Positions 2,464 through 50,263 of a stretch of DNA of 64,000 bases are shown in pieces. The stretch covers positions 1 to 64,000 of the forward strand of contig JAGBDV010000001.1 in NCBI GenBank assembly GCA_017937305.1, given 5' to 3'. The notes under the pieces are model-generated. The model did no database searches. It was given only the letters and a program-made list of their open reading frames with translations, and was not told the DNA's origin. The position numbers and the translations under genes are program-made. Position 1 is the stretch's first letter. Every line of letters starts with the position of its first letter. The stretch is from Bacilli bacterium (GTDB lineage Bacteria > Bacillota_I > Bacilli_A > ML615J-28 > CAG-313).

Positions 2464-2782
2464 TCCACAACAACTACTTTAATTATTATATCATAGTGAT
2501 TTAAAAACAAAAAGATTTTTAATATTTTTATTAATGAAATACCTTTTTTGAAAAATTATGGGTATAACTTTTTGTATACTCTAATTATGAAAAACTTAAT
2601 ATTTTTTATTTTATTATTGACTTGTTATAGTTAGTCTCTCTTTCTTTTAATGGCCAAAAGCGAAACTGGGATACCCTGGTTTCGCTTCTTTACCACTAAA
2701 TATAAGAAAGGATGAAACTGAGATAATCAGCTCCACCCTTAATGTTAAAAGTGATATTAATTTATTAATTATGTTTGTAACT
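2464..2782. other. Intergenic region between the IS110 transposase and cassette A
   Basis: No gene is seen. It should contain the IS right end. A short hairpin GTATA...TATAC lies around 2550-2580 and a strong hairpin at 2658-2687. Confidence 0.5.
2652..2687 (-). terminator. Strong hairpin, probable terminator of the cassette A operon
   Basis: AAGCGAAAC (2658-2666) pairs with GTTTCGCTT (2679-2687), with GGG/CCC inside. On the minus strand it is followed by TTTTGG. It lies about 95 bases beyond the stop of the last cassette A gene. The T-run is short, so termination is likely but not certain. Confidence 0.5.
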
Positions 2783-3358
2783 TTAATCATAAATAACATC
2801 ATTTTCATATCCTAATGTACCACCGAAGCAATATGAATTAATAATTTTTTCTATTACATCTTCATATTGTTCATCATATAAGCGAAGTAATAATATATAA
2901 TCTCCTTTTTCTCGATTAATATATGCATTAATTTTCAAAACACTAAAAATCTCTTTTTCATCGGAAAATATATATTTTTCAATAGAATTTGAATAAATTT
3001 TAACTCTATCATAATTTTCATTGACTTTTATAGCGTATTCTACTTCATATTTATTATTAAATGATAAATCATTCCCTATGTAAAGCCAATCATTATTTTT
3101 ATATATAGAACTCACATATCCTTGTACAATTTGTTCTGCTATTACTTCTTTTGTATCTTTATTAATTAATGTTATTATACCATCATCAATAATAAACTCC
3201 CATTCATTAGGTATTTTAATGGTTCCTCTTAAAGTGCTATTTGTTGGGATTTTAGTTGTATAAAATCCTTCATAATTTTCATCATAAAAATTAAACAATC
3301 GACATCCACTTAAAAATAATATAAAGAATAAGAGAATTATTAAATTAATTTTTTTCAT
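2783..3358 (-). CDS. Lipoprotein downstream of RHS-A; candidate immunity protein, 191 aa
   Basis: The N-terminus has a basic start, a hydrophobic core and the lipobox LSGC at about residues 16-19, so it is a predicted lipoprotein on the outer face of the membrane. The mature part is rich in Asp, Asn, Tyr and beta-type sequence; I recognise no domain. It starts 12 bases after the RHS-A stop and has the ribosome site AAGGAAGG. It occupies the slot that a SUKH-3 immunity protein holds in cassette B. That position suggests immunity to the RHS-A tip, and an extracytoplasmic one would fit a toxin acting at the envelope. Function is inferred from position alone. Confidence 0.65.
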   Translation of the reverse strand: MKKINLIILLFFILFLSGCRLFNFYDENYEGFYTTKIPTNSTLRGTIKIPNEWEFIIDDGIITLINKDTKEVIAEQIVQGYVSSIYKNNDWLYIGNDLSFNNKYEVEYAIKVNENYDRVKIYSNSIEKYIFSDEKEIFSVLKINAYINREKGDYILLLRLYDEQYEDVIEKIINSYCFGGTLGYENDVIYD

Positions 3359-3370
3359 ATATACCTTCCT

Positions 3371-6300
3371 TTATTTAAATATAGTTATTTTAGGTAATGG
3401 CGTTTTAAAAATGTCTATAAAATCATTAACTGCCCCCATAATTTTACTAGCAATCCATTCACTTAACATTGCCGTATCATCTTCAGATGTAGGTCCCATA
3501 TCAGCCCCATCCATTGCATGGCTATTGCCAGCTAAATAAAATAAATAATGGGCTTGCAGTTCAATATATAATCCCAATATAGTCCTAGAGTCTTCATCTT
3601 TATAATACGTATTCTTTAAAAAATAAGCATACAATCCTGCATTCCAAAAACTATAATTAGGGTTATCCTGAAATTTAAATCTTGTGTCAGTTGCCATCTT
3701 AATTGATGAAAAAAGCAACGGTATATTAGCAAGAGAAACTGGCAAATCTCCATATAACATTCCTAATAACGAATATCCTATTCTTTTCCATCCAGTTATA
3801 CCAAATGATGTACATCTATCATATGCTGTTATAAATCCTTTTCTTATATACAATCCAATTAATTTACCTACATTTGATTTATAAATTGGATTAGGTACAA
3901 TCATATGCCCACTCGGATCTGCATAAGAAATAGGATTATTTGCACAGTAGCAGTATAGATTTAATCCATTTACACTTTCAGGATCTAAATATTCAATATC
4001 ATCAGGACTAATAAATCTACATAATTCCGGTGAATAATACCTTGAGGATAACCAAAACCATCCTGTTTCTTCATCATAATAGTAACCTTTATATCTAATA
4101 GGATTCAAATTCATAATTTGTAAATTTGTATAAACATTTGATACATTTTGCGAATTGCAAATTATTTCTTGATTTCCATATGCATCATACACATACCTAC
4201 CTACTAAGTTATAACTTTCATCAACTATTCCTATAACACTATTATCATAGTTTTTAATATAATAGAATGTTTTATTAACAACACCATCTTTAACAAGAAC
4301 GAATCCTAACAATCCATCTTTATCATATAAATATAATAGTGTTTCATTTTTTCTTACTTCTTTTAATAATTTATTATCATCATAGTAATAATATATATCA
4401 TAATTATTACTATTATTATTGCCATATGAAACACTTTTGCGATATCTAAGTCCATTTATTAAATTATATTCAAAATTTATTGTTTTTGAGATATCACCTA
4501 TTGAATTTAATCTATTTTTATTCCAATTTAATAAATATTGATATTCTATAATATTATCTTTAATTTTAGTTATTGATACACAATCTCTTGTAGTATTATC
4601 ATATCCTAAAGAAATGTTATAATCATTTGATACAATATTTGTTAATAAGCCTTTTTCATATAAATAATTAATATTATTTAATGTTCCATCTTTTTTTGTA
4701 TGAATGATATTATTAATTGATCCATCTGCATAATATGAAAATTCTTTAGTTCCAAAATATGATGTATCTTTAGTTAATTGCTCATTTATATCATATTCAT
4801 ATGAATTATCATAACTATAATCTTGACCTTCAATCCTAAATTTTATTGGATTACTAGTGATTTTGTCATTATAATCATAAGCAAAAGTTGATTCAACTGA
4901 AAATCCGCTTTCAACAGGATTAATAGTTATCTTTTCAAGTCTTCTTGTTTCTGTATTATATGAATTAGTAACATTAAATTTTTTTGTATTATTAGAATAT
5001 TTATTTTCTAATTCTTTTTTTGTTAATCTTCCGTATCCATCATAATAATATTCTGTTTCTATTAATCCAGCTTTATTTAAAACTTTAATTGTTGTCTTAT
5101 CAATTTGCGATTCTAGCACGTTATTACTTCTTACTTGTCTAAACTCTAATAAATTTTCAGGGTCAGTTTTATTAAAATTATTTTCTACATTCTGATTATT
5201 AAACCTATAATTTACATCATCATATCCAATTGCAAATTGCTTATAACTTATTTTATCAATTTCAGTTTCTTTTGTCAATACATATTCTTTATTTGAATAA
5301 TCACTAATTGATGTATAATCTTCATTTTCAGGATTTAATAATGGAAAGTACATTTGTTTTTGTATTAAATTATCATTATTTTTCATTTGATATTTTTCTG
5401 CTATATTTAATCTTTCATCTTTTACTATATTATAACTTATAACATTATTTAAATTATCTGGAGATTCTGTATCAACATCATATAAACAAGATAATACTTC
5501 TTCATTATTATGTTTAATTGAAATCAATTTATTTTTACTATTATATGTACTTGTAAATATATTATTACCATTTTCTTCTTCTAAAATAGTTAAAATTTCA
5601 TTATCAACCTCATCTTTAAACAGCTTTCTATTATTAAAAATATTTGTAAATAAATTTCCTTGATTATTAAATGTTTTAATCATAGTTGATTGTGCTCTAT
5701 TATATTTATTATTTAATAATAAAGGAGTATGATCAAATTGGTAAATAATGTTATTAGTATCATCATAATCAGCATGTGAACTTGTCTTAAATTCTACTAC
5801 TTTTCCGCTACCACTATATTTAATAAAATTACTATTTCCATTTGTTCTTTTTACTTCCACAATATTTTCATTAAAAATATCATATACATAATCAGTTATT
5901 CTGTCATCTTCAGAACTATTTTTAGAACTAATAAGTTCTTTTACTAATACACAATCATTATCATATACTAAATTAATAACTTTATTTAATTGAGTAATAC
6001 AAAATTGACTTGGATATATACTATAAGATAATGTATAATACGGTTCAGTAGAATTTTGATCCGTAAAATAAACATTAATTAGATCATCGTAATCATCATA
6101 TTCATAACAAATAGTAATATTTTTTGAAGTTTCTTCTTCTATAATTTTACCTAATAAATCATATTTTTCATATGAATTATTTGTAATTAAAGTTACATCA
6201 TCTCCACTATATATTCTTTTCTCTCCGGTTTTTCTAATATACATATATTTTACATTTTCTTGATTTATAATTTCTGTTTCGAAGCTATATATTGTATTAA

Positions 6301-8131
6301 CTACTTCAATATCATATTGCAAGGCATTCCTTAATAATAAATCATAGTTATTTAAGTTAATTTCTGTTACTCCATCAGTCAATTTTATAATAATATTTGT
6401 AGCATATCTTTTATATCTTCCATTATCAAATGAAACAATATGGTAAGTTGAATCATTTTCAAAATAATCTTTTTTTAATTGTAATAAATCATTAAAACTT
6501 AATCTAGTAGATGACCATATTAATTCATTAATAGTATATGTATTATCATTATCTTGAATAGAACAACTAATCATATCAATATCATTAATATTAATTTCTT
6601 CATTAGTTGTTTTGTTTACAAGTATTACATCACTATGAGTGCCTGCTTTTAATTTTAAATCAGAGATTAATAATGGACAATTATCAGCAGGTAATAATTC
6701 TTCATCATACGAAAATTTAAGTTTTAAATTTTTGAATTGAAGGTCATTTATAGTAATTGACATATTTAATTTTTGCCAAGCGTTCACCGCATCTTTATTT
6801 AAATATCCATAACCACATACACTTTCTTCATCATCACTGTTGATAACTAATACTTTAACTTTATCAGATAATAGTTCTATATTAAGATACACTAAACACG
6901 ATAAATCATAATAATTAACTCCCAAAAAGTTATTTAGTAAGTTACTTTTAAATTCAGCAAAATAATTTTCATTAGTATCTTTAATAGATAGTGTATCAGA
7001 TGTTAATGAATATGCATTTCTATTATTAATGCAAATTGTGCTTGAACCAGTTGGCATTACATCTAATCCAAATTTATTTGTCTCATCTTTAAAATGTGAT
7101 TCATCAACTTGTTCTAAGGCAGTTGTAAATCTTCCTTCACTATCATAAAAATAAACAATAGTTACATTATTACTATTTGTAACATTTGTTTTATGATTTG
7201 TTGGAAGATATGAAATTGTTAATGATTCAATGGTATCTAATTTATTAATATCATCTTCATTAAAAACAAATTGTTTATCACTTAAATACTTATCATCACC
7301 TAATATAAATTCACTACCTAAATATTCATCTACTTCAGCCATAATTGGAATTATTTTGACATTATATGAATCTAAAGAAACCACTTTATTTCCTAAATAA
7401 ACAAAATCAATTTCTTGACACTTATTGTAAGAAATCATTTTAGTAATATTATGTGCTGAATTATATTCATATTTAAATATTTTCTTTTCGCCTTTATAAG
7501 TTGTTTTCTTTACATAAATTAAATTTTCATTTTCATCATAGTAATATTCTAAATTATATTTATTTTTATGATCACCATATATAGAACATGTTTTAATTAA
7601 TCCATCATCATAATATGCAAATTCTATTCTATTTTGGACTTCCCTTGTATCATAATAACTCACTACTTGATTTTTACTATTATATGATATAACTTTTGAA
7701 AAGTTTTTATAATTAATTCTTGTTAATCTCTCATTAACAAATTTTAATTCTACACCATTTTGCATAGTAATTGTTTGAGTTGAAGAATCAAATATAAAGT
7801 TTAATCCACTTGTATCATAATATTTTGTTCCGGTTAATAACTTAAATTCATGTTTCATTCCAACTTCATCAATATAATAATACACATCTTGAATTTTATA
7901 AATATATTGTTCAATATCTAATTTCCACTTATTTCCACATTTACTACTTAATCCACTAGGTAAACTAAAGTGTGAATTATATACATGATTAACTCTTAAA
8001 TTATAACTTTCAATATTAATATTAGCATCTGGAGTTGAAAATAATAATCTACCTGTAAAAGTATTAATACTGCCTTGTCCATTACCTAATTCAAAAGATA
8101 ACTCCTTTTGAAAATTTTTACTATTATCCAT
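3371..8131 (-). CDS. RHS-repeat polymorphic toxin A, about 1586 aa
   Basis: A giant RHS/YD-repeat shell protein. The N-terminus (MDNSKNFQKELSFELGNG) has no signal peptide. A beta-jelly-roll-like insert lies around residues 380-500, followed by dense YD repeats such as YYYDGYGRLTKKEL. The conserved RHS core spans about 1343-1410 (NPIRYKGYYYDEETG ... RYYSPELCRFISPDD ... NPISYADPSGHM). The 176-residue tip beyond it (1411-1586) is the expected toxin. It holds GMLYGDLPVSLANIP and AGNSHAMDGADMGP, but I recognise no family. I choose the second ATG (8131), which matches the cassette B start and has GGATGG at good spacing; the ATG at 8143 lies inside the ligase stop region. The ligase precedes it and a lipoprotein follows. 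Confidence 0.88.
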   Translation of the reverse strand: MDNSKNFQKELSFELGNGQGSINTFTGRLLFSTPDANINIESYNLRVNHVYNSHFSLPSGLSSKCGNKWKLDIEQYIYKIQDVYYYIDEVGMKHEFKLLTGTKYYDTSGLNFIFDSSTQTITMQNGVELKFVNERLTRINYKNFSKVISYNSKNQVVSYYDTREVQNRIEFAYYDDGLIKTCSIYGDHKNKYNLEYYYDENENLIYVKKTTYKGEKKIFKYEYNSAHNITKMISYNKCQEIDFVYLGNKVVSLDSYNVKIIPIMAEVDEYLGSEFILGDDKYLSDKQFVFNEDDINKLDTIESLTISYLPTNHKTNVTNSNNVTIVYFYDSEGRFTTALEQVDESHFKDETNKFGLDVMPTGSSTICINNRNAYSLTSDTLSIKDTNENYFAEFKSNLLNNFLGVNYYDLSCLVYLNIELLSDKVKVLVINSDDEESVCGYGYLNKDAVNAWQKLNMSITINDLQFKNLKLKFSYDEELLPADNCPLLISDLKLKAGTHSDVILVNKTTNEEININDIDMISCSIQDNDNTYTINELIWSSTRLSFNDLLQLKKDYFENDSTYHIVSFDNGRYKRYATNIIIKLTDGVTEINLNNYDLLLRNALQYDIEVVNTIYSFETEIINQENVKYMYIRKTGEKRIYSGDDVTLITNNSYEKYDLLGKIIEEETSKNITICYEYDDYDDLINVYFTDQNSTEPYYTLSYSIYPSQFCITQLNKVINLVYDNDCVLVKELISSKNSSEDDRITDYVYDIFNENIVEVKRTNGNSNFIKYSGSGKVVEFKTSSHADYDDTNNIIYQFDHTPLLLNNKYNRAQSTMIKTFNNQGNLFTNIFNNRKLFKDEVDNEILTILEEENGNNIFTSTYNSKNKLISIKHNNEEVLSCLYDVDTESPDNLNNVISYNIVKDERLNIAEKYQMKNNDNLIQKQMYFPLLNPENEDYTSISDYSNKEYVLTKETEIDKISYKQFAIGYDDVNYRFNNQNVENNFNKTDPENLLEFRQVRSNNVLESQIDKTTIKVLNKAGLIETEYYYDGYGRLTKKELENKYSNNTKKFNVTNSYNTETRRLEKITINPVESGFSVESTFAYDYNDKITSNPIKFRIEGQDYSYDNSYEYDINEQLTKDTSYFGTKEFSYYADGSINNIIHTKKDGTLNNINYLYEKGLLTNIVSNDYNISLGYDNTTRDCVSITKIKDNIIEYQYLLNWNKNRLNSIGDISKTINFEYNLINGLRYRKSVSYGNNNSNNYDIYYYYDDNKLLKEVRKNETLLYLYDKDGLLGFVLVKDGVVNKTFYYIKNYDNSVIGIVDESYNLVGRYVYDAYGNQEIICNSQNVSNVYTNLQIMNLNPIRYKGYYYDEETGWFWLSSRYYSPELCRFISPDDIEYLDPESVNGLNLYCYCANNPISYADPSGHMIVPNPIYKSNVGKLIGLYIRKGFITAYDRCTSFGITGWKRIGYSLLGMLYGDLPVSLANIPLLFSSIKMATDTRFKFQDNPNYSFWNAGLYAYFLKNTYYKDEDSRTILGLYIELQAHYLFYLAGNSHAMDGADMGPTSEDDTAMLSEWIASKIMGAVNDFIDIFKTPLPKITIFK

Positions 8132-8133
8132 AA

Positions 8134-9498
8134 TTAAAACCATCCTTTCTCTGTTAATTCTTCTAATACTTCTTCAACAATTTCACTATCTTTAAAGAAC
8201 TTCATTGATTCTTCACCATCACATAATGTTCTTTTATTACCACGACCGGCAATAAAGATAGCATCTTTTTCATTTGAACAAGTAATTGCTTCTTTGATAG
8301 CTTCTACTCTATCTAAGATAATTTCACTATTAACTGTTTCACCTAAATATGATTTTAAATTAAGACATATTTGTTGGACATCTTCTGCCCCACTATCACA
8401 TTCAGTTAAATATACATAATCAACATCTTTTAATAAGCCCATTGCATATTTTCTATATTTTACTCTTGAGTTAATATACTCTTCTGATTTAAACTTTTCA
8501 TCCCAATGTTTATATCCATATCCAACAGAGCCAACTACTACTTTAATTTGATTAATTAGGCCTTTTTCTTTTAATTCTTTTAAACATTCTAAAGGTTTAT
8601 CAAGTTGTGTATCAATTAATATTAATCTATTATTCATATTAATTACTTCACTTCTTCCACCAACTTTAATATCATAAATTACGTCTTTAAATTTGTCTAC
8701 ATCAAATAAATTTAAAGCTTGTAAAGTAGTGATTGTTGCTAAGATATTAAATGCATTATATTTCATTAATAATTTAGTCTTAAAATTAATTACTTCATCA
8801 CTAACTTTAACTTCCATATTTAATCCATCTAGTGTCAAAAATAATTCTTGTAATACTACATCAAAGAAGTTTTTATTAACTTGATATGTTTTTAAAATAT
8901 GATCTGTTGAAAATAGATATTTATCATTATGTGACGTTAACTTTAATAATTCATTTAATAATTTTTCATTATAACATTGAAAACCAATTACGCATTTTGT
9001 ATCTTTATTTGTGTTTCTAAAAAATGATTTTTTTAATTCAACATATTCTTCTTCAGAATAATTTTCTTCACTATGGAATGGATTTAAGTTTGTTAATACT
9101 TTAACATCAAAATCGATATCATCTAAAATATGTTTTTCTAAAACTGATTCATTAACTTCTAAAATTAAATAGTCAGCTTCATATGCTTCCACTTCTTCAA
9201 TAATATTAAATAAATCTTGTTCTGATCTAAGCGCAATTTCAATGCCGATAGTTTTATCTATATATGTTACAGGTGAATCTACCATTGCACTTGAATATAA
9301 AACTGATTTATATCCCAAACTCTTTAAGTATTCATGTAACATAACACATGTTGATGATTTACCTGTACTTCCTGTAACACCAATTATTTTTAATTCATTA
9401 ATATTTTTATCTTCTTTCTTTTTAAATTCTTTTTTGAATTTTCTTGTTTGCTGTAACTCTTTTTTTAATAATTTTTCTTTTACTTTTTGAAGTTTCAT
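8134..9498 (-). CDS. MurE-like Mur ligase family protein A, 454 aa
   Basis: An ATP-dependent ligase of the Mur fold. After a very basic leader of about 35 residues come the P-loop GVTGSTGKSS (about 40-49), LILEVNES, a Mur-type segment NLNPFHSEENYSEEEYVELK with the His and Lys equivalents, YNAFNILATI, then C-terminal GRSEVINM, LIDTQ, VVVGSVGYGYKHW and IFIAGRGNKRT. The order and spacing match MurE, but the amino-acid-recognition DNPR of MurE is replaced by ECDSGAED, so the added residue is probably different. This is unlikely to be the housekeeping enzyme: it lies in a toxin operon and is duplicated in cassette B. The ribosome site is AAGGAG. Substrate unknown; wall-precursor modification is inferred. 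Confidence 0.85.
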   Translation of the reverse strand: MKLQKVKEKLLKKELQQTRKFKKEFKKKEDKNINELKIIGVTGSTGKSSTCVMLHEYLKSLGYKSVLYSSAMVDSPVTYIDKTIGIEIALRSEQDLFNIIEEVEAYEADYLILEVNESVLEKHILDDIDFDVKVLTNLNPFHSEENYSEEEYVELKKSFFRNTNKDTKCVIGFQCYNEKLLNELLKLTSHNDKYLFSTDHILKTYQVNKNFFDVVLQELFLTLDGLNMEVKVSDEVINFKTKLLMKYNAFNILATITTLQALNLFDVDKFKDVIYDIKVGGRSEVINMNNRLILIDTQLDKPLECLKELKEKGLINQIKVVVGSVGYGYKHWDEKFKSEEYINSRVKYRKYAMGLLKDVDYVYLTECDSGAEDVQQICLNLKSYLGETVNSEIILDRVEAIKEAITCSNEKDAIFIAGRGNKRTLCDGEESMKFFKDSEIVEEVLEELTEKGWF

Positions 9499-9513
9499 AA
9501 CTTTCTCCTTTTA

Positions 9514-10017
9514 CTAATCTTCTGGTGAAATTGATGCATATGTATAATTAACATGACAATCAATAACTCCTATAATTACATTTGTTTCATTTGAAGTTAA
9601 TGTAACTTTAAATGGAATTTTTTCTGTTCCTTGTAATGTTCCTCCTGAGCTTTTAACTGTACCTGTGATAGTTACTGTTTCTGTTACATCATCATAAGAA
9701 CCATTTAACGTAATATTATTTGATAAATCATATTCTACTGTGATATCTACTTTTTCTAAACATTCAATAGTAATTGTGTTTGTTGGTACTACATTTGGAG
9801 ATAAATCCATATATTTTTTTGCAACCTTATAGCCTTTTCTAATAAACTCTAAAGTATATTTATCAATTGATGAGCCTGACTCATAAACTTGTCCTTCATC
9901 TCTTGTGATATAACAATACATTTTTGAAATATCACCTTTTTCATCTCTCACAACACTATCTACTTCAAATGATTTTCTATGCAGATATTGTGCATTTCTG
10001 TTTTTAATATTTTTCAT
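9514..10017 (-). CDS. Phage tail-fibre-like small protein A2, 167 aa
   Basis: The N-terminal part (about 1-60) follows a pattern seen in prophage tail-fibre or baseplate proteins: a start like NRNAQYLHRKSF, an acidic GDISKMYCYITRDEG, and ESGSSIDKYTLEFIRKGY where phage proteins have GTP-x-NAxNLN. The C-terminal part (about 75-167) is beta-rich (ITIECLEKVDITVEYDL, VTITGTVKS, IPFKVTLTSNETNVIIG) and looks like one Ig-type sandwich. It ends with ISPED, similar to the end of the cassette B homologue. No signal peptide. It lies between its paralogue A1 and the Mur ligase, so it may be an adaptor or particle-like component. Function is inferred. Confidence 0.6.
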   Translation of the reverse strand: MKNIKNRNAQYLHRKSFEVDSVVRDEKGDISKMYCYITRDEGQVYESGSSIDKYTLEFIRKGYKVAKKYMDLSPNVVPTNTITIECLEKVDITVEYDLSNNITLNGSYDDVTETVTITGTVKSSGGTLQGTEKIPFKVTLTSNETNVIIGVIDCHVNYTYASISPED

Positions 10018-10048
10018 ATTATTTTCTCCTTTAATTTTGAATTATTAA

Positions 10049-10534
10049 TTAATCATAATCAAACTCAACTGTACATTTTACATATCCGATTTTTACATTA
10101 GTTTCTTCAGAAGTCAAAGTAACATAAAAATCAAAATTTGTAATTCCAGTTCCGGTAACATTATTTTTAACTGTTGCAGTAACCGTAACTATACCAGTAG
10201 TATTATTGACAGAACAACTCAAATTAAATGGGAACGAACTACTATTTCCTACTGTTGCATTAACTTCTTCCAAACATTCGATTGTTAATGTATTCGTAGT
10301 TAACAAATTCTTTCTTAATTCCATTAAAGATCTCGGTACCCTATATCCTTTTCTAATAAACTTTAATGTATCTTTATTTATAGGCGTTCCTTCTTGATCT
10401 ACATCACCATCTGCTCTTCCAATAAACCCATAAAACTTTGTGATATCTCCAGCATTATTTCTTTCTAATACTTCTTCAACAACTATTAGTTTTCTATTTA
10501 CATATTCTGCTTTTCTATTTTCAATATGTTTCAT
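10049..10534 (-). CDS. Phage tail-fibre-like small protein A1, 161 aa
   Basis: A paralogue of the next gene: the same N-terminal pattern (ENRKAEYVNRKLIVVEEV, GDITKFYGFIGRADG, QEGTPINKDTLKFIRKGYR) and the same beta-rich C-terminal half (TNTLTIECLEEVNATV, GIVTVTATVKN, FDFYVTLTSEETNVKIG). The GTPIN element resembles the GTPLNA motif of Firmicutes phage tail proteins. It starts 2 bases after the holin stop, so the genes are probably co-translated. Cassette B has a single member at this place, so A1/A2 look like a local duplication. Its role in the toxin locus is not known. Confidence 0.6.
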   Translation of the reverse strand: MKHIENRKAEYVNRKLIVVEEVLERNNAGDITKFYGFIGRADGDVDQEGTPINKDTLKFIRKGYRVPRSLMELRKNLLTTNTLTIECLEEVNATVGNSSSFPFNLSCSVNNTTGIVTVTATVKNNVTGTGITNFDFYVTLTSEETNVKIGYVKCTVEFDYD

Positions 10535-13907: not shown

Positions 13908-14750
13908 CTAATCAGAAACTAATAAAATATTAAACTGTTTATATTCACCACCCCATAATTTTACAGCAATTAAATTGTCATACCAGGATAATATTTCACT
14001 TTTATATTTATTTTCAAATAATTCTTTATTAATAACATCATTAGTTAGAAAGTAATTATAATTCGTTATAATCATTAAATATGATTCCTTATTTATATAT
14101 TCAGTTAATTTTCTCATATTTAAAATATGCATTTGAAAATCAAAAGATACTTTATCAAATGGAATTAATTTATTTAATTCTAAAATAAAATTTTTTAAAT
14201 TACTACATTTTTTTCCATCTAACTCAATTACAAAAGAGTGATTAAATTTTTCTTTATACTTATTAATTTCATCTTTATTTATTTTATATATTTCGTTTTT
14301 AAAAGTACATGGCTTAGCTTTAATTGGAATTTCTTCAACCTTATTGCCATAATAGCAATTTTCTATCATTTCATAAATATTATTTCCAAACAAGAATAAA
14401 TAACCATCAAATGAAGCATATATTTTTCCTGACAAAGAAATCATAATTAAATAGTAAAAACCAATTTCTCCTATAGGTATTAACTGTTCTCCTACAGATT
14501 CCTCATAATCTAATGCTACTTCTTTATCTTCTGCTATCATTTTCTCACAATCAAAAATTACCTTATCTCTTGATTTTTTTAAAGGGAATTTAAAAGTAAA
14601 CTTATCAAATCTTTCTAAAAACAGAATTAAATTTTCATTAACTTCATATCCGTTTTGTTTTATATATTTAATTATTCGATCAATATCTCTTTTTTCATTA
14701 TTCCAACCATTTTTTTTTAAGCATTGTAGTACGTCTTTAGAAAAACACAT
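13908..14750 (-). CDS. SUKH-3-type immunity protein with barstar-like C-terminal half, 280 aa
   Basis: The N-terminal half (about 1-130) matches the SUKH-3 pattern: LKKNGWNNEKRDIDRIIKYI, NGYEVNENLILFLERF, then PIGEIGFYYLIMISLSGKIY, and FGNNIYEMIENCYYG. SUKH proteins are common immunity partners of nuclease and deaminase toxins. The C-terminal half (about 170-280) starts HSFVIELDGKKCSNLKNFIL, continues MRKLTEYI and IITNYNYFL, and ends WYDNLIAVKLWGGEYKQFNI. That pattern is barstar-like, which I hold with less confidence. No signal peptide, so it acts in the cytoplasm. It begins 9 bases after the RHS-B stop, the usual place of a cognate immunity gene. A two-domain protein could neutralise two toxin activities. 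Confidence 0.75.
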   Translation of the reverse strand: MCFSKDVLQCLKKNGWNNEKRDIDRIIKYIKQNGYEVNENLILFLERFDKFTFKFPLKKSRDKVIFDCEKMIAEDKEVALDYEESVGEQLIPIGEIGFYYLIMISLSGKIYASFDGYLFLFGNNIYEMIENCYYGNKVEEIPIKAKPCTFKNEIYKINKDEINKYKEKFNHSFVIELDGKKCSNLKNFILELNKLIPFDKVSFDFQMHILNMRKLTEYINKESYLMIITNYNYFLTNDVINKELFENKYKSEILSWYDNLIAVKLWGGEYKQFNILLVSD

Positions 14751-14759: not shown

Positions 14760-17700
14760 CTATCCACTGACAACTAATAAAATACCTCGAAGAAGTTTTC
14801 TACAATTTCTACACATAGGCGCCATGGCCAAATCCTTAACCCTTACAGTTGTTACTACTAAATCACTAAGTCTAGCCCCATCATCTAAAGCTTTTGAAAC
14901 TGCCCTCACTTCTGCACAATTAAAAATATCATCCCATTCTTCTAAAGATGGAAACTCTCTTGCTTTTAAAAGTTTATTTGGAATAAAATCAGGATTTCTT
15001 CCTGCTTTTCCACGATAAATTTTTCCAGTTTTTTTGTCAATGGCTGTAGATACATTGTTATATTTTCTTTTTGAAGTAGCAAACACATCTTTAGCATACT
15101 GAAGTGCTGACTGTTGTGAAGCATTTACTATTTTAATAGCACTGGAAATATTAAGACTAGTACTTATGATCGCAAACAATCCAGTAATAGCCAAAGAGAA
15201 CGACCAATTATTATTTATGTAATTTAAAAAACCGGGACCAAAACCTTTTTTTGAACAAAAGCCAGCTATTGCAGCTGCTCCAAAAAACCACAAACCTGAA
15301 ATTACTACACTTTTTACTAAAGCTTTAGCCAAGATAGCAGCAGCACCAATATTAAAGAATGCAACAACAATAATTATTATTACAGCAATTACCATTAACC
15401 CTATTGATATAGCTTTTCCGAGCGGACTATTCCAAAATTTTTGCCAAGTCACTTGCCAAAAATATTGCCACTTTGTTAATTCATCAGAATCATAAGTAAG
15501 CTTTTCAAATGTTTCATAAGTATATGTATTATACACTAAATTAATAGGATTTGCAACAGTTAAACTATACAAATTAAGACTATACAAAGAATTGGCATTT
15601 GAAAATGCAACTTCTGGTGATACCGCTGAAATAAATTGTTTCATTAACGGAGAATAATATCTACCATTAATAAAATATAATTTACTTTCAGTATCATAAT
15701 ATAGTGATTTCCATCTTATTGGATTGATATTCCCAATATGATTTTCATCTGTAATAATGGTTCCACCTTTCTTATCATATACCATACAGTTTCCCCATGA
15801 ATCATATTCATAATAAGCTACTTCTTTATCTTTATTATATATTGCAATTACATTATCTTCAGCATCTTTAACAAATGTATATTGAAATTCATCATTATTA
15901 TATAATGGTATAATTCCACTCAATCCGTCTGCATCATATAAATATCTAATCATTAGACCATTTCTTTCTTCCCTAATTAACTTTGATCCATCATATACAT
16001 AATCTACATTATTGTCATTAATAGTCTTTTTAAAACGCACTCCTTCACCATTATAATAATATTTAATATTTTTATCACAAATGTATTGTTTTAATAAGTT
16101 ACCTCTTTCCCAAAACATATTTTGAGGTTTAGTTTTTGAATCAATATTATAATGCGTACAATTTCCAAAATTATCATAATCAAATAAGTTTTCAATAAAT
16201 TTCTCTTTTCGTTTTGTTAATCTTCCTTTATCATATGTATAATATGTAGATTCACCAGCCATAGATTCACAATATAAACTTCCATCTTTATTATATGAAT
16301 ATGTCTTATCTGCATATATAAAAGATGAATTTGTACTACTTTCAAAAATTAACCTATTTGCATTATCATATTTATATGTATTTAAAGTTTCTTCACTATC
16401 ATTACCTCTTTCTGAGGTAATTTTTTTATTAGAAATATTTCCTTTTTTGTCATAGGCATAATTTATTTGATATGTTTGGGTTTTTGACATTGGATTAGTA
16501 ATTTTCTTTGTAATTTGTTCTACTTGAAATGTTCCTTTTTTATAAGTAATTTCTTCTGTTACTTTTGAATTTGCTCCAAATAGTCCATCCTTAATTACAT
16601 CCTCTTTGTATCTTAGTCTGCCTAATTTATCAAATTCATAGGATGTTTTTATAGGTAATATCTCAACTTTATCATTAACTACTTCCGTAATAGTTTCTTT
16701 AATTCGTGGATTCATTAGTTTACTTTCATCCTTAGTGTTTTCGCACTTATAGTATACTCCTCCATATTGTACTTGGTTTGTTGAATTTAATTTAGTAGAA
16801 AAATAACTCTCACCATCTTCATTAAAAACCTCATACTCCGTTAAGTCATTAAACTCATTATAATGATATTTATAAGTTCTATTTTCATATGGATCATATT
16901 TTTCTTCAATTTTACTAGCACCATTACTTTCCCATAGTTCTTGTCTTCTATATGTTATTTCTTTATCCCCATTAATAACTGAAGTTATTCTCCCATATTT
17001 ATCAAAATGTATAGTTGATGTGTCAATTTCACTAGAATTATACAAATCTCTATAATAAGAAGTTGTTAATTTATTTTCTACATAATTCATATTTCTTGAT
17101 AATAACAATTGTTTGTTAGGTTTTTTTAACTCATCTCTATACATTAAATAATAATTCGTTGTTTCACCCAATAAATTGTAATTGAACAAAAAACCATACA
17201 TATTACTTTTGTTCCATCCAATAGGCGTCACTGCCAACAATCTACCATTCTTATCATATTTCAAATAATTAGATCCATCTAAATTATTTGAAATTTTTTT
17301 AATTTGCGAAGAAGTATTGTATTTCATTTCAACGGACAAACTTTTTTCTTCATCATTATTATAATGTATATTAGATACATTACCTGAATGCTCATCAGTT
17401 GTTGTAACAACTTTACCTCTATAACTTTCTTCTGAACTTTCTGTTTCTTTAATGGAATACTTTGTTGAAATCACTTCATCAGTATCTTTATGACCCATTG
17501 TTTTCTCTATTAAATTACCTTTTTCATCATAATAATAGCATACTTCAACACCATATTCATCTATCTCCTTTAAAAGATTTCCATTAATATCATAATAGTT
17601 ATATATTGAACTCATTTCATGATTGTTTTTGTCGGATTTCAAACCTTTATTTATCTCTGTAATTTGTAAAATACAATCAGTATTTTTTCCATTCATATTT

Positions 17701-19598
17701 ATATTTTTTAAAAAATGTGGTATTCCATAAGTATATAAATTATTATCAGGACTCTTTACCTCTGAAAAATATAAGGCCCTAGTATTATCTCCATATTCAT
17801 CACTTCCAAACATTACTGGAAACTCTATATTATTAGAATAAAACTTTACACTATTAACCAATATTTTTTTTGTCCCATCACAACACGATAAAATGTAAGG
17901 TAAATCACTGCCATTTAAGCCTCTTGTTTTGAATAAACTATAATAAGTAGATTGAATATCTTTTTCACTAAAATATAAATTCGAATTAACGTATTCAGTG
18001 ATTTCATCTGAATCACTGGTTGTTTTATATTTTATTTTAGTTATTTTATCCACATATCCCCAATTTTCTCCATTTGTTAAACAATATTTTGATACCCCAC
18101 TATGATACAATTTCATATCACCAATTTTTACAATTTTGTTACTATTATTTTCACCGAACATTATTTTAATATCATTTAAATTTTGATACTTTATACAAAT
18201 TGGTATAGCAACATGTTGCCAGCTATTTATTGCAGAAGTATCAACATTAAAAGAGAAAATTTCTTCTTGAGTTTGTGCATTTTCTGATGAATTAATTTCA
18301 ATATTAACTTTTGAATTTGATACATTTTGTTGTATATTTAACCAAAAGTCACACATGAAATTTATATAATTAGAACATTTATATTTTCTATAACTCTTCA
18401 AGTTTTCAAAATAGTCTTTCATTAAATTTTCTTTACTAATTATATAATCCATATTTAAAATATGAACATTTCTAGTATTTATTTTTTCTACATTATCTGA
18501 TGTTGAAATCATAGTTTCTTGTCCATATTTTTCTGTTGTTTTCAAATCATTAATGTCACCATTATTAATTTCAAATTCAGAGACTGTATATCCTTTTTCA
18601 TTAAAAAAGTATATAAATTTTAGATTTTTTTCATTTTCCACAATTGTATTATTATCATCATAAATTAAATTGTTATATGAAATTAAATCTTCTCCATAAA
18701 TTGTTGGATTTTTAATAATAAAGTTCTCATCTGATATATACTTTCCTCCAATATATTTATCCTCGTCTACATAACTATTAATATTTAAGTAATAGTTATT
18801 TTTTTCTTTTTTAATGTTCTCCAAAGTAACAAAGCCTTGCTTTATAGATTCAATTTGATCATTAATATTATAATCAAATAAGAATGTAGACTTGTCCTTT
18901 AATGACACAACATTAGTTAAATGATTTTTTGTATAAATAAACATATGTTTTTCAATATCATTAGACACTTTTATTAAATCATTGTTTTCATTATATTCAT
19001 AGTGTATCTTTTTTATTATATTGATACCATTTTTATATTTTATATAATTTAATAAATTAGTTTCATTATCATATTCAAATAGTAATTTCATATTAGGATA
19101 ATTTGTATCATAAATATTTTTTAATCTTCCAAAAGAATCATAATCAAATTTTTTTGTTTCATTATTATTTGAAACACTTTTAATTATTTTGTTGTTTTCA
19201 AATATCAATCTATTATTTTGTTGATCTTTAATTGTTAATAAATTATTATTCACCTCTAATATTAATTCTAATCCTTCTGAATCATAAAATTTATTATTCG
19301 ATAATTGTTCAAATATATGTTTATATCCCATCGAGTCTATGTATACATATTTCCCATTTTCAAAAATTATATATTGTTGAACATTTAATTTAAAATTATT
19401 ACCTACATAAGTGTTAACATGCTGCGATAAATCAAACATGGAATTATATATATGACTTACATCAATATTAAATAAATTATTACCAATACCTACATCATAA
19501 TATTCATATAATAATCTCCCAGTTGAAAGATTTATTTTTGCAAACCCCGCTCCTGAACTATATGATAATTCACTTTGATTAATTCTACTATTATCCAT
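14760..19598 (-). CDS. RHS-repeat toxin B with YwqJ-like deaminase tip, 1612 aa
   Basis: The N-terminus (MDNSRINQSELSYSSGAG) has no signal peptide. YD repeats run through the shell (for example YYYDEKGNLIEKTMG). A degenerate RHS core lies at about 1292-1356 (NPIRWKSLYYDTESK, GRYYSPLMKQFIS). The 256-residue tip begins with three hydrophobic segments (about 1397-1426, 1431-1447, 1466-1482), as in some toxins that must cross a target membrane. The last part has YRGKAGRNPDFIPN, the zinc-deaminase motif CAE (Cys1561, Glu1563) and APMCRNC (Cys1596, Cys1599), matching YwqJ-like nucleic-acid deaminases. AGGGTGG precedes the ATG; the ligase stop is 4 bases upstream. The SUKH-3 gene follows. The family call rests on motif and context. 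Confidence 0.9.
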   Translation of the reverse strand: MDNSRINQSELSYSSGAGFAKINLSTGRLLYEYYDVGIGNNLFNIDVSHIYNSMFDLSQHVNTYVGNNFKLNVQQYIIFENGKYVYIDSMGYKHIFEQLSNNKFYDSEGLELILEVNNNLLTIKDQQNNRLIFENNKIIKSVSNNNETKKFDYDSFGRLKNIYDTNYPNMKLLFEYDNETNLLNYIKYKNGINIIKKIHYEYNENNDLIKVSNDIEKHMFIYTKNHLTNVVSLKDKSTFLFDYNINDQIESIKQGFVTLENIKKEKNNYYLNINSYVDEDKYIGGKYISDENFIIKNPTIYGEDLISYNNLIYDDNNTIVENEKNLKFIYFFNEKGYTVSEFEINNGDINDLKTTEKYGQETMISTSDNVEKINTRNVHILNMDYIISKENLMKDYFENLKSYRKYKCSNYINFMCDFWLNIQQNVSNSKVNIEINSSENAQTQEEIFSFNVDTSAINSWQHVAIPICIKYQNLNDIKIMFGENNSNKIVKIGDMKLYHSGVSKYCLTNGENWGYVDKITKIKYKTTSDSDEITEYVNSNLYFSEKDIQSTYYSLFKTRGLNGSDLPYILSCCDGTKKILVNSVKFYSNNIEFPVMFGSDEYGDNTRALYFSEVKSPDNNLYTYGIPHFLKNINMNGKNTDCILQITEINKGLKSDKNNHEMSSIYNYYDINGNLLKEIDEYGVEVCYYYDEKGNLIEKTMGHKDTDEVISTKYSIKETESSEESYRGKVVTTTDEHSGNVSNIHYNNDEEKSLSVEMKYNTSSQIKKISNNLDGSNYLKYDKNGRLLAVTPIGWNKSNMYGFLFNYNLLGETTNYYLMYRDELKKPNKQLLLSRNMNYVENKLTTSYYRDLYNSSEIDTSTIHFDKYGRITSVINGDKEITYRRQELWESNGASKIEEKYDPYENRTYKYHYNEFNDLTEYEVFNEDGESYFSTKLNSTNQVQYGGVYYKCENTKDESKLMNPRIKETITEVVNDKVEILPIKTSYEFDKLGRLRYKEDVIKDGLFGANSKVTEEITYKKGTFQVEQITKKITNPMSKTQTYQINYAYDKKGNISNKKITSERGNDSEETLNTYKYDNANRLIFESSTNSSFIYADKTYSYNKDGSLYCESMAGESTYYTYDKGRLTKRKEKFIENLFDYDNFGNCTHYNIDSKTKPQNMFWERGNLLKQYICDKNIKYYYNGEGVRFKKTINDNNVDYVYDGSKLIREERNGLMIRYLYDADGLSGIIPLYNNDEFQYTFVKDAEDNVIAIYNKDKEVAYYEYDSWGNCMVYDKKGGTIITDENHIGNINPIRWKSLYYDTESKLYFINGRYYSPLMKQFISAVSPEVAFSNANSLYSLNLYSLTVANPINLVYNTYTYETFEKLTYDSDELTKWQYFWQVTWQKFWNSPLGKAISIGLMVIAVIIIIVVAFFNIGAAAILAKALVKSVVISGLWFFGAAAIAGFCSKKGFGPGFLNYINNNWSFSLAITGLFAIISTSLNISSAIKIVNASQQSALQYAKDVFATSKRKYNNVSTAIDKKTGKIYRGKAGRNPDFIPNKLLKAREFPSLEEWDDIFNCAEVRAVSKALDDGARLSDLVVTTVRVKDLAMAPMCRNCRKLLRGILLVVSG

Positions 19599-19602: not shown

Positions 19603-20952
19603 TTACCACCCTAGTTCTTTAACTACTTTTTCAACTACTTCACTATCTTTTACTAATTTAAATGTTGTTTCACTATTGCATAATACTTTTCTATTACCTC
19701 GTCCACTTATAAATACTGCATCACCTTCTTCTGAATCTAAAATTGCTTGTTTAATTGCTTCTTCTCGATCCAAAATAATTGATGATGGAATAAGTCCTTC
19801 TAAATTTGCTTCTAATTCTTTACAAATGTCATTTGTATTTTCTTTACCACTATCACTTTCTGTCAAATAAACATAATCTGCAACACCAGGCAATAAACTC
19901 ATAGCAAATTTTCTGACATCTTTTCTTTGTAAAGCAAATTCTTTTGTTTTAAATCTATCCTCCCAATGTTTATAACCATAGCCCATTGAACCTACAACTA
20001 CTTTAACTTTATTAACTTTTCCTTGTCCTTTTAGGTGTTTCAAGCAATCTAGCATAGCTGGCAAATGAGAATCAATAATAATTAATCTTCCATTTACTCT
20101 ATATACTTCTGATCTTCCAGGTATTACTAATTGATTTAATGCTTGTTCAAATTTTCTCACATTTAAAACATCCATAACATCTAATGCTGTTAATGCAACT
20201 AAAATATTTAATGCATTATGTGACATCATTAGTGTTGTTTCCATTTTATAAGTATCATCATTTAAATTGAATCTTAATTTCATTCCTGAAATATCATTAT
20301 CTAATCCTGTTAACAAACATTTTACTTTGTCTTTTTCTAAACCTTTTAGTGTAGCAATATAATTACTTGAACATACAAATTTTGGATAACTATTCAATTG
20401 TAGCAATTCATCTAATAACTCTTTGCTATAGTCTTGAAAGCCAAAAACGCATTTACAATCATCAGCAATATCTTTGAAAAATGATTTTTTTAATTCCACA
20501 TACTCTTCTTCTGGATATTGTTCAAGATTATGTTTCGGATTCAAATTTGTTAACACACGAACATCAAAAGGTACATCCCTTAGAAAACCTTTTTCTAATG
20601 AACTTTCATTAACTTCTAAAACTAAATAATCTGCACCATATGCTTCAACTTCTTCAATAATACTAATTAATGATTCTTCATCTCTAACAGCAACTTCATA
20701 AGCTTCATTTTTCTTTAAATGACTTGCAGGAGAATCAACCATAACACTTGAATATAATGTTGATTTATAACCTAAAAATTTCAAATAATTATGAATCATT
20801 AATGCTGTAGTTGATTTTCCTCGACTTCCTGTAATACCTATAATTTTTAAATTATTTCTTTTAGAATTAATATTATTTTTGTATTCTTTTTTTGTACCTC
20901 TTTTTTTTATTTGCTTTTTTTCTAATTTTTCTTTCACTTTAAAAAGTTTCAT
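19603..20952 (-). CDS. MurE-like Mur ligase family protein B, 449 aa
   Basis: A homologue of the cassette A ligase over its whole length. A basic leader of about 33 residues is followed by the P-loop GITGSRGKST (about 39-48), LVLEVNES, NLNPKHNLEQYPEEEYVELK, HNALNILVALTAL, GRSEVYRVNGRLIIIDS, VVVGSMGYGYKHWEDRF, TESDSGKE, ILDREEAIKQAI and VFISGRGNRKV. These correspond in order to the ATPase, central and C-terminal domains of MurE, but with DSG in place of the DNPR amino-acid motif. All residues expected for ATP binding are present, so it is probably active. It could add an unusual residue to a wall precursor or to another acceptor. It is preceded by the tail-fibre-like gene and followed by RHS-B. 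Confidence 0.85.
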   Translation of the reverse strand: MKLFKVKEKLEKKQIKKRGTKKEYKNNINSKRNNLKIIGITGSRGKSTTALMIHNYLKFLGYKSTLYSSVMVDSPASHLKKNEAYEVAVRDEESLISIIEEVEAYGADYLVLEVNESSLEKGFLRDVPFDVRVLTNLNPKHNLEQYPEEEYVELKKSFFKDIADDCKCVFGFQDYSKELLDELLQLNSYPKFVCSSNYIATLKGLEKDKVKCLLTGLDNDISGMKLRFNLNDDTYKMETTLMMSHNALNILVALTALDVMDVLNVRKFEQALNQLVIPGRSEVYRVNGRLIIIDSHLPAMLDCLKHLKGQGKVNKVKVVVGSMGYGYKHWEDRFKTKEFALQRKDVRKFAMSLLPGVADYVYLTESDSGKENTNDICKELEANLEGLIPSSIILDREEAIKQAILDSEEGDAVFISGRGNRKVLCNSETTFKLVKDSEVVEKVVKELGW

Positions 20953-20973
20953 TTTAATTACCTCCTTAAATAT

Positions 20974-21534
20974 CTAATCTTCTGGTGTTGTAGATGGCAC
21001 TTGGAAAGTAACTGTGCATGTTACTTTCTTAATTAACTCATCTGTTTCCTGTGAATATAATTTCACTACAAAATCAAATTCTGTAGCTCCTGATGATTCT
21101 GGATCTTGACATGCTGTAATATCAATAGTTATTGTTCCTGCTGATACACTATTTGGAGCAGAAACAGTAAAATACTCTTGATAATCATTTTCAATAACAA
21201 TTCTAACTGCTTCTGACACATCAATATAAATGCTATCATACATTGCGCATGATCCATCAAATAAAACTGTAGCTTCAGCATTTTCTAATACTGCCATACC
21301 ATTTTCATGGTAATTTTCTAATGCTATTTTCACGGCAGATTCGATCATTTCTTTAACTGTTGCATTTAAATTTGAGGCTTTCAAAGGAGTACCATTTTCA
21401 TATATAGTTCCTTCATTTCTTGCTTCATCAACAATTAGTTCATAAATTTCACCATTTTCATCATACGTAATATCTTTAATTGTTAATTTTTTTCTATTAG
21501 GATATTGAACTTCCCTATCCACAAATTTACTCAT
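20974..21534 (-). CDS. Phage tail-fibre-like small protein B, 186 aa
   Basis: The N-terminus is the clearest phage-type sequence in either cassette: EVQYPNRKKLTIKDI, ENGEIYELIVDEARNEG and YENGTPLKASNLNATVKEM, matching the tail-fibre pattern R-EG...GTPLNA-NLN. A helical stretch (about 60-80) links it to a beta-rich C-terminal domain (about 85-186: VRIVIENDYQEYFTVSAPN, GTITIDITACQD, TEFDFVVKLYSQET) ending STTPED. It stands between the holin and the Mur ligase. It is longer than A1 and A2 because of an extra helical and linker part. It may anchor the toxin to an assembly or to the cell surface; this is inferred. Confidence 0.65.
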   Translation of the reverse strand: MSKFVDREVQYPNRKKLTIKDITYDENGEIYELIVDEARNEGTIYENGTPLKASNLNATVKEMIESAVKIALENYHENGMAVLENAEATVLFDGSCAMYDSIYIDVSEAVRIVIENDYQEYFTVSAPNSVSAGTITIDITACQDPESSGATEFDFVVKLYSQETDELIKKVTCTVTFQVPSTTPED

Positions 21535-26776: not shown

Positions 26777-26974
26777 TCAAAATAATAATTTTTCTATAGG
26801 AACATTTAAAATTTCTAATAATTTCTCTATTTTATTTAAGTTAGGTAAACATATATCAGCTTCCCATTTATATATAGTTTGTCTGCTAACTCCTATTAAC
26901 TCAGCTAATTCTTCTTGACTAATTTTTTTGCTTTTTCTGATTGTTTCTAAATTAGAACTAAAATTAATTTTCAT
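26777..26974 (-). CDS. XRE-family (Cro/C1) HTH repressor, 65 aa
   Basis: A minimal HTH_3 protein: LETIRKSKKISQEELAELIG, VSRQTIYKWEADICLPNLNK and LEILNVPIEKLLF match the five-helix Cro/C1 fold, with Gln, Ser and Arg at the recognition helix. Its start overlaps the end of the upstream HExxH gene by 11 bases, so the two are translationally coupled. This resembles repressor/anti-repressor peptidase pairs of mobile elements, such as ImmR/ImmA of ICEBs1. It probably regulates the neighbouring island genes. Confidence 0.88.
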   Translation of the reverse strand: MKINFSSNLETIRKSKKISQEELAELIGVSRQTIYKWEADICLPNLNKIEKLLEILNVPIEKLLF

Positions 26975-27434
26975 ATAAATACTTTTTCATATACTCTTCC
27001 ACAAGTCTTTGAAACCTTTTATCTTCATACTTGAAATATATATTACGGTTTCTTAAATAATACTGACTAAAAGCAAAAACGTCAAGTTCAATTGCTTGTA
27101 ATGAATAATCATTATATTCATTTGAATTTACGTTAATATTAGCCGAAGATTTAGCTTGCGCTAGTTCTTCTTTCCATATTCTAGCAAATTTATCATCCAT
27201 TAAATTAGCCCAATAGATTTGAAATATATGCCTCATTTCATGAGTAATACATTTAGCCGATTCTAAAAAGTTATTTTCATATTTAATATTTATTACAATT
27301 TTAGATATAGGTTTTAGTATTAATCTACTATCATCAATTTCCAAGTTTTCGTACTCTATTGGTATTAAATCAATACCTAAGTATTCTGCTACTTCTTCTG
27401 ATAATTTTATTAATATATCTTTTATATCTTTCAT
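26964..27434 (-). CDS. HExxH zinc metallopeptidase-like protein coupled to XRE, 156 aa
   Basis: The motif CITHEMRHIFQIYWANLMDD (about 78-97) gives the zinc ligands His-Glu-x-x-His; downstream AIELDVFAFSQYYL supplies a candidate third ligand (Glu). The fold and size are like ImmA/IrrE or minimal gluzincin proteins. No signal peptide, so it acts in the cytoplasm. It overlaps the XRE gene. By analogy with ImmA it may cleave or control that repressor in response to a signal; the order here (peptidase first) is the reverse of ICEBs1. The analogy is inferred. Confidence 0.7.
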   Translation of the reverse strand: MKDIKDILIKLSEEVAEYLGIDLIPIEYENLEIDDSRLILKPISKIVINIKYENNFLESAKCITHEMRHIFQIYWANLMDDKFARIWKEELAQAKSSANINVNSNEYNDYSLQAIELDVFAFSQYYLRNRNIYFKYEDKRFQRLVEEYMKKYLYEN

Positions 27435-46900: not shown

Positions 46901-48097
46901 TTAATTAGGTAACCCCTTACTTACTTCAACATTTAAAGAACCATAAAACGAGTTATCATTCATTGTAACACTTTCATGAACAATTACACTTTGTAAACTT
47001 GGACAATTATAAAATGCATATTCTTCAATTAAACCAATAGAATAATTTGAAGATACACTACTAAGATTAGGACAGTTATAAAATGCATATTTTAAAATTT
47101 TAATACCACGTTTAGCTAATAATATATATGGAGCTTTAATAACTATTTCCTTAATATATTGATTATTATAAAACGCATAACTATCAATATTAATAATATC
47201 AGCACCAATGATTAATTTTTCGTTAGTAGCCCATGGTGGACAGTATATTAAAGATAAACTTGATCTATCATATATAATACCTTCTCTATATTGGAAAGTA
47301 TTGTTATTTTCTAGCGATATTTCTTTTAAATTATCCATTCCTAGAAAACATGATGCAGACAACTTTGTACAATTTGATAAGTTTAGTTTTTCAAGACTAA
47401 AACAATTACTAAATGCATAGTCTCCTAATGTAAATGATTTAGAGTTAAACTCTATATTTTTTAAATTAACACAACCACTAAACGCATAATCTCCAATAGT
47501 TTGTAAATTTTCAGTTAATGAAACATTTTCTAAACTAACACAATTAGAAAATGCATGTTCTTTTATCTCTTTAAGTTCATTATTTAAGTTTAATGAACTT
47601 AAACTAATACAATTAGAAAAAGCTTCTTCCCCAATTGAAACCATTGTATTTGGTAATATTACAGAAGATAAGCTTGCACAATTTTTAAAAGCTTTATCTT
47701 TTATTGCAGTAACATTACTTGAAGCTCTAATAGAGATTAAATTATAACAATTTTCAAAAGCAGATTCAGGAATAGATATAGGCCCATCAAACATATAAAC
47801 ATATTCTAATGAATGACAATCTTTAAACTGTTCTTTTTCTAGCTTTTCTAAAGTTTCAGGAAGTAATACTGATTTAATTATAGAATTACCAGTAAAAGCT
47901 TCTTTATCGATATATTTTACTTCTATTATTTTAGGTCCATTAGAATATGCATGAGGTATAATGACTTCTGTATCAGTACCGGTATAATTAGTTAATCTAT
48001 CACCAACAAACTCAAAATCTCCAAACTTATATTCATAAGAACAGCCACATATTAAAAATGAAAAACAAACTATAATAATAACAAATATTTTTTTCAT
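46901..48097 (-). CDS. BspA-type LRR (LRR_5) lipoprotein, long form, 398 aa
   Basis: Lipobox FLICGC near residue 20 after MKKIFVIIIVCFSF. A shared N-terminal module follows (FVGDRLTNYTGTDTEVIIPH), then LRR_5 repeats of about 23 residues (AFSNCVSLENVSLTENLQTI, AFSGCVNLKNIEF). An internal non-LRR segment (YREGIIYDRSSLSLIYCPPW) resembles the same region of the 383-residue long form at 49108. The start is the ATG at 48097 with AAGGTG upstream. Surface-exposed adhesion or binding role is typical of BspA-like proteins. Last gene of its transcript. Confidence 0.88.
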   Translation of the reverse strand: MKKIFVIIIVCFSFLICGCSYEYKFGDFEFVGDRLTNYTGTDTEVIIPHAYSNGPKIIEVKYIDKEAFTGNSIIKSVLLPETLEKLEKEQFKDCHSLEYVYMFDGPISIPESAFENCYNLISIRASSNVTAIKDKAFKNCASLSSVILPNTMVSIGEEAFSNCISLSSLNLNNELKEIKEHAFSNCVSLENVSLTENLQTIGDYAFSGCVNLKNIEFNSKSFTLGDYAFSNCFSLEKLNLSNCTKLSASCFLGMDNLKEISLENNNTFQYREGIIYDRSSLSLIYCPPWATNEKLIIGADIINIDSYAFYNNQYIKEIVIKAPYILLAKRGIKILKYAFYNCPNLSSVSSNYSIGLIEEYAFYNCPSLQSVIVHESVTMNDNSFYGSLNVEVSKGLPN

Positions 48098-48111
48098 ATC
48101 TATCACCTTTA

Positions 48112-50259: not shown

Positions 50260-50263
50260 CTTA

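Follow-up and report, generated by a model that had tools for sequence, protein, structure and literature searches.

The C-terminal tip of RHS-A, one of the two RHS genes of the 64,000-nucleotide window (i.e., the whole stretch of DNA analysed here), appears to be a member of an undescribed family, and the best-supported reading of the sequences is that the tip and the lipoprotein encoded next to it represent a new toxin and immunity family inside the known RHS architecture. With a probability of roughly 0.6, this tip would act from outside at the membrane and would be neutralised by the adjacent outer-leaflet lipoprotein.

The RHS-A tip and the adjacent lipoprotein

The features discussed below are the following (window positions):

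2708-2740, minus strand: terminator-like hairpin ending the RHS-A/lipoprotein operon (1 found versus 0.2 expected)
2783-3358, minus strand: lipoprotein, 191 aa, predicted cognate immunity protein, 12 bp 3' of the RHS-A stop
3302-3313, minus strand: lipobox L-S-G-C with predicted lipidation at Cys19 (from the sequence)
3371-8143, minus strand: RHS-A gene (ORF, 1590 aa)
3374-3901, minus strand: RHS-A tip, 176 residues, i.e., pre-toxin segment plus toxin domain (ORF and homologue alignments)
3410-3679, minus strand: probable toxin domain, predicted all-helical, tip residues ~75-164 (alignments and low-confidence AF2 helices)
3458-3481, minus strand: second invariant acidic motif, D-D-T-A-M-L-S-E, tip residues 141-148 (codons and alignment)
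3545-3562, minus strand: invariant motif E-L-Q-A-H-Y, tip residues 114-119 (codons and alignment)
3746-3901, minus strand: pre-toxin segment, tip residues 1 to ~50-52 (pattern G-x2-GW-x3-GY-x4-G)
13908-14750: SUKH-3 protein next to RHS-B, cytoplasmic-type (E 1.1e-14)
14760-19598: RHS-B gene, with a deaminase-like tip

RHS-A displays the features of RHS polymorphic toxins, that is, an RHS core located 5' of the tip (TIGR03696, residues 1319-1413, E 4.8e-20 in the NCBIfam search) and a variable tip placed at an NPxxYxDxxG junction; the junction motif is NPISYADPSGH, and the tip begins directly past NPISYADPSGHM. No signal peptide was seen on inspection of the RHS-A N-terminus, no export domain was reported by Pfam or NCBIfam, and the small genes upstream of RHS-A gave no informative PHROGs match. 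The tip gene and the lipoprotein gene are the 3' end of one operon, as witnessed by the short gap between them, the good, GGAAGG-type ribosome site of the lipoprotein gene and the terminator-like hairpin past its stop codon. On the opposite strand, 320 bp 3' of the lipoprotein gene, lies an IS110-family transposase gene (DEDD_Tnp_IS110, Transposase_20; 1279-2463), which has the appearance of an ordinary insertion. In the regions 8134-10534 and 19603-21534, each RHS gene has a MurE-like Mur ligase gene 5' of it, overlapping RHS-A by 10 bp and lying 4 bp before RHS-B, and the small proteins encoded 5' of both have in common an N-terminal (N/D)REVQYPNRKxL-type segment that recalls the way phage tail fibres begin; Mur ligase, small proteins and RHS gene form a conserved RHS cassette.

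The gene occupying the immunity slot of RHS-A encodes a lipoprotein and not a cytoplasmic SUKH protein, as originally predicted: its start, MKKINLIILLFFILFLSGC, is made up of a short charged stretch, a hydrophobic run and the lipobox, although the Pfam profile LPAM_1 remained sub-threshold (E 0.11). In contrast, RHS-B is accompanied by a SUKH-3 protein, and its tip (dCMP_cyt_deam E 0.018 and YwqJ E 0.19, both below the cut-off) probably acts in the cytoplasm, since a deaminase-like tip with a SUKH-3 neighbour is the usual layout for a cytoplasmic toxin. The structural model of the RHS-A lipoprotein is beta-rich, with a pLDDT of 63, and the best Foldseek matches obtained with it include PsbP, LpqN, Mog1p and Tsi3, all of them weak (E 1e-3 to 0.2, TM <0.41); a PsbP/Mog1p-like fold might thus be taken as a lead. 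Other lipoproteins are encoded elsewhere in the window: five small ones lie in tandem at 46901-51865, four of which carry leucine-rich BspA-like repeats, and they adjoin a giant repetitive protein of >3,800 residues (52406-64000) that extends beyond the window.

As far as the tip itself is concerned, the prediction of an unrecognised stretch of 176 residues turned out to be exact, coordinates included. Neither the tip nor the lipoprotein gave anything above noise against Pfam, NCBIfam, PADLOC, PHROGs, PDB sequences, plasmids and phages, and the remaining genomes of the taxonomic family yielded no relatives of either. In the homologues, the pre-toxin segment is a hydrophobic stretch followed by the pattern G..GW...GY/W....G; variants of this pattern also precede unrelated RHS toxins (L017, L028, L030), so that this segment is probably not the toxic part. 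Downstream of it, the three full-length tips retain Y-S, A-G-L, R-T, G, E-L-Q-x-H-Y, G-N, A, G and D-x-T-A-x3-E, and a distant RHS tip in genome G276 (profile E 5.7e-8) still retains R, G, E-L-x2-H-Y, N-P-A, G and D-x-A-x3-E. The invariant polar residues R106, E114, H118, N126, D141 and E148 suggest that the tip may be an enzyme; these few residues make its activity testable. AlphaFold, which had been proposed as a check, produced from three sequences an all-helical model of the tip, but one of low confidence (pLDDT 48, poor for a fold search) for which no fold match was retrieved.

Relatives of the pair and the recombinases located beside them

Among the 395 genomes of the class, a relative of the tip was disclosed in G329 (E 1.7e-15, 37% identity over 117 residues), and a two-sequence profile revealed a second full-length relative in G411 (E 3e-48). 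Both carriers belong to the Acholeplasmataceae, and in both of them the RHS tip stands as an orphan, starting with TPVMYxDxxG and devoid of the core; hence, the same tip family occurs core-joined in the window and orphan in G329 and G411, i.e., the tip is interchangeable between loci. A homologue of the lipoprotein lies directly 3' of the tip, in the same order, at 3/3 full-length loci, the gaps being 12 bp in the window and 14 and 15 bp in G329 and G411. The tips of G329 and G411 are 32% and 40% identical to the window tip (shuffle z 14), and their lipoproteins 32% and 34% identical to that of the window (z 9-11); between G329 and G411, the identity is 56% for the tips and 38% for the lipoproteins. 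Tip and lipoprotein have diverged together. Full tip matches and strong lipoprotein matches fall in the same two genomes of the 395 (co-occurrence p ~1e-5, kinship ignored), with the proviso that three full-length loci are a small sample, two of them coming from one genus, and that these counts are not independent. The pairing exceeds chance, since both families lie adjacent to each other in G329 and G411 as well, with gene order and spacing retained; the evidence supports the lipoprotein as a co-inherited partner of the tip. When genome and viral contigs were scanned with degenerate patterns, only the G329 and G411 loci were returned.

Besides the window genome, G329 and G411, strong lipoprotein profile matches were obtained only in G403, whose orphan lipoprotein (98% identical) is embedded in an RHS-tip array, with an IS3 element in the place of the tip. 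In this genome, identity to G329 (98.6% over 2.57 kb) starts at the last base of the tip stop codon, with the IS3-type element upstream; this break of homology at the tip stop, beside the IS3-type element, points to a lipoprotein left without its tip. The finding of the lipoprotein in relatives lacking RHS genes had been named as evidence against the pairing, and the outcome is mixed: the G403 orphan does lie among RHS tips, whereas a distant homologue in G460 (E 5e-13) has no RHS junction motif around it in the 12 kb examined, and a weak match in G244 lies at a contig edge. The G460 homologue has no lipobox and carries an N-terminal TM anchor; given the lipoboxes of the three other homologues (LSGC in the window, LTSC and LTGC), the outside-facing, membrane-bound location of the protein seems to be kept by two means.

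Several further candidates were discarded. Lipoprotein matches at E 1e-5 to 1e-3 covered mostly the N-terminal signal region only; of the weak order-level matches L003-L008, the best one, L003, is antisense to another gene; L029 and L031 are likewise not relatives, and L028 and L030 have only the pre-toxin pattern in common with the tip.

In G403, a second, unrelated RHS tip with a metallopeptidase-like HEYGHH motif (L057, 10575-11749) is followed by a lipoprotein, which suggests that lipoprotein immunity may recur in these RHS-tip arrays. Small proteins with HExxH-like motifs (HEMRH, HEITHYYQ, HELTHYYQ) are found near RHS/immunity-type arrays in several genomes, at 26964-27434 in the window, L058 9252-10250 and L028 2-280.

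Outside the window, the tip-lipoprotein unit of G329 is located just 3' of a large serine recombinase (L011, C10:151501-171500) harboring the domains Resolvase, Recombinase, Zn_ribbon_recom and DUF4368. When such recombinases were searched for in 160 genomes of the order of G329, an RHS junction sequence was found past the gene in 12/12 Acholeplasmataceae recombinases (at least 42% identity; a two-piece copy in G305 was counted once), and in 1/16 of the more distant matches found elsewhere (G463, L020); the difference is significant (Fisher p 4e-7) if kinship is ignored. The recombinase-side junction consists of a variable left half, e.g., CTGGGTTACAGGCACATG, followed by ACTCCAGTGATGTA or a near variant; its distance from the recombinase stop codon is 23-24 or 98-117 bp, and greater in two copies with a disrupted frame, and an RHS tip follows it in at least 10 of the 12 cases. 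Recombinase loci ending next to an RHS core/tip junction, with tip-immunity units on both sides, are L011, L094, L095, L096, L097, L098, L099, L057 and L020.

A 3.4-kb stretch of G329, comprising tip, immunity gene and recombinase, is 92% identical in G217, which belongs to another genus; the identity stops ~30 bp beyond the junction, and different tips are found thereafter. The insertion of a unit composed of tip, immunity gene and recombinase at the core/tip junction would leave this pattern, and this suggests that such an event might provide the core with a new tip and its immunity gene, while the old tip-immunity unit, now an orphan, would be displaced downstream. At odds somewhat short of even, the tip-lipoprotein unit might therefore be the cargo of an undescribed site-specific element, with large serine recombinases of the Acholeplasmataceae using the RHS core/tip junction as attachment site; tip diversity would then be driven by an enzyme and not left to homologous recombination, and the toxin mobilised in this way would, for the present unit, be one directed at the membrane. 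No such recombinase is present beside RHS-A in the window, and no description of recombinase-driven RHS tip swapping was found in the full-text literature, of which the coverage was partial. If true, the recombinase link would represent a concrete enzymatic answer to the question of RHS tip exchange.

Where the toxin might act

We infer the toxicity of the RHS-A tip, the immunity, the delivery, the extracellular site and the lipid target, and the proposal runs as follows. RHS-A would be a polymorphic toxin delivered by contact or secretion, whose C-terminal ~100 residues would form an undescribed helical, probably enzymatic toxin domain. This domain would reach the membrane from outside, and its target would most likely be a lipid or some other component exposed there rather than peptidoglycan. 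The lipoprotein, held at the outer leaflet of the cytoplasmic membrane, would bind the domain and block it, sparing the producer and its kin. No gene besides that of the lipoprotein occupies the immunity slot, and this, together with the lipobox or TM anchor of the partner, suggests that the tip is met outside the cytoplasmic membrane. Thus, of the original prediction of an envelope toxin with extracytoplasmic immunity, the new tip and the co-inherited lipoprotein (3/3 loci) hold, whereas action at the envelope would follow from the location of the partner and from the lack of another candidate in its slot.

The nature of the target can be approached through the carriers. The penicillin-binding transpeptidase family PF00905, the one Pfam family from which the presence of PBPs and of a wall was judged, is present in the window genome (G000), G276 and G460, and absent from G329, G411 and G403 (99%, 81% and 100% complete, respectively); the Acholeplasmataceae are a wall-less family. 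A host lacking peptidoglycan has no use for an antidote to a toxin that attacks it, which makes the membrane, or something on it, a more likely shared target than peptidoglycan, on the assumption that immunity genes are retained against kin. A toxin from a wall-less host might still be aimed at walled rivals; the retained immunity gene, however, suggests that kin are at risk.

This bears directly on the possibility that the target, attacked from outside, is peptidoglycan or its lipid-linked precursors, the tip being a muramidase, an amidase or a lipid II phosphatase like TelC, and the lipoprotein guarding the zone where the wall is made. Lipoprotein or periplasmic immunity is common for wall-targeting toxins (e.g., TipC for TelC, PMC12419801), the window genome does have PBPs, and one of the weak Foldseek similarities of the lipoprotein is to Tsi3, a muramidase immunity protein. 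Nevertheless, G329, G411 and G403, which carry the pair or the orphan, would have no self-target, and glycosidase, amidase and ColM profiles do not match the tip; this explanation is considered unlikely.

Just as unlikely is a tip working in the cytoplasm, for instance as a nuclease, with a lipoprotein that prevents the toxin from docking at the surface or entering, and does not block the toxic activity. It is true that the cytoplasm is where the majority of RHS tips act, that of RHS-B probably among them, and that the invariant E, H and D would also fit a metal-dependent nuclease. A known cytoplasmic nuclease in this position would have contradicted the original prediction, but the tip matches no nuclease or deaminase family; moreover, a second, cytoplasmic immunity gene is found beside none of the three tips, and a surface blocker would give the producer no protection from toxin made internally.

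The tip might also depolarise or perforate the membrane in a TspA-like manner without being an enzyme. The hydrophobic pre-toxin segments of the homologues (19-residue Kyte-Doolittle maximum 1.8-1.9) and the predicted all-helical structure of the tip would be compatible with such a pore, but the hydrophobic segment falls in the region common to unrelated tips, and the C-terminal ~100 residues, with their invariant polar residues, reach just 0.5-1.35 on the same scale, which makes a pore less probable than either of the two preceding explanations. Finally, operon position by itself is no proof of immunity and the weak PsbP/Mog1p-like similarity of the lipoprotein recalls a fold also found in the T6SS Eag chaperones of RHS effectors, but a lipoprotein acting as an RHS accessory (receptor, export or maturation factor, second effector) and not as an antidote is very improbable, given that RHS-B has no lipoprotein, that the lipoprotein travels with this tip only and in the immunity slot, and that it persists without the tip in G403.

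Comparison with known systems

With the Bacillota RHS toxins of the WapA type, which have SUKH or other cytoplasmic immunity proteins, RHS-A shares the RHS core, the variable tip at a fixed junction and the immunity gene immediately 3'; it differs from them in the new tip family, the predicted extracytoplasmic immunity lipoprotein and the lack of a recognised export signal. The immunity protein Imm65, which is paired with Tox-JAB-1 in Bacteroidetes (table in PMC3482391), likewise carries a signal peptide and a lipobox, but it comes from another host phylum and goes with another toxin class, and no common sequence family was seen. The Y-S-x3-A-G-L pattern of the tip had suggested Ntox44, characterised by DxK, GNxxxG and DxxxD (PMC3482391); this candidate was rejected, as the genome search with PF15607 missed the tip and the three motifs are absent from it.

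A resemblance also exists with the lipocone toxins (TelC-TipC, Min-Wnt, prok-SAA, CapCone), in terms of helical polymorphic-toxin tips, membrane-anchored immunity and conserved H, E and D. Their immunity proteins are all TM proteins or lipoproteins, and their signature residues sit in a core of four helices, H in the second, E in the third and D in the fourth (PMC12419801). The tip recalls serum amyloid A and the lipocones in the succession E-x3-H...GN..A..G, but the helix order misfits: in its low-confidence model, E114 and H118 are on one predicted helix (E-L-x2-H) and D141/E148 on the next, and a fourth core helix is not evident. In hmmscan with E values up to 10, none of the lipocone profiles (SAA, VanZ, DUF2279, DUF4056) matched the tip. 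It might be part of a group of lipid-head-group toxins such as the lipocones; membership is not claimed, because E and H fall on the same predicted helix and a match to a lipocone profile is lacking.

The closest working parallel, by analogy, would be the phospholipase A TslA of the Staphylococcus aureus T7SS, which is neutralised by the lipoprotein TilA (PMC10730906). Both cases would involve a Gram-positive antibacterial toxin and an adjacent lipoprotein antidote acting outside the cell. The two systems differ in that TslA, a lipase, shows reverse domain order and has T7SS partners, and TilA belongs to DUF576, whereas the toxin domain proposed here is the C-terminal tip of an RHS protein, for which no lipase (alpha/beta-hydrolase) domain was matched in Pfam and the low-confidence model is all-helical. 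If true, the membrane-acting pair proposed here would enlarge, by one toxin family and one immunity family, the small set of Gram-positive pairs known to work outside the cytoplasm and, being present in both walled and wall-less Bacilli, would point to a membrane target common to both.
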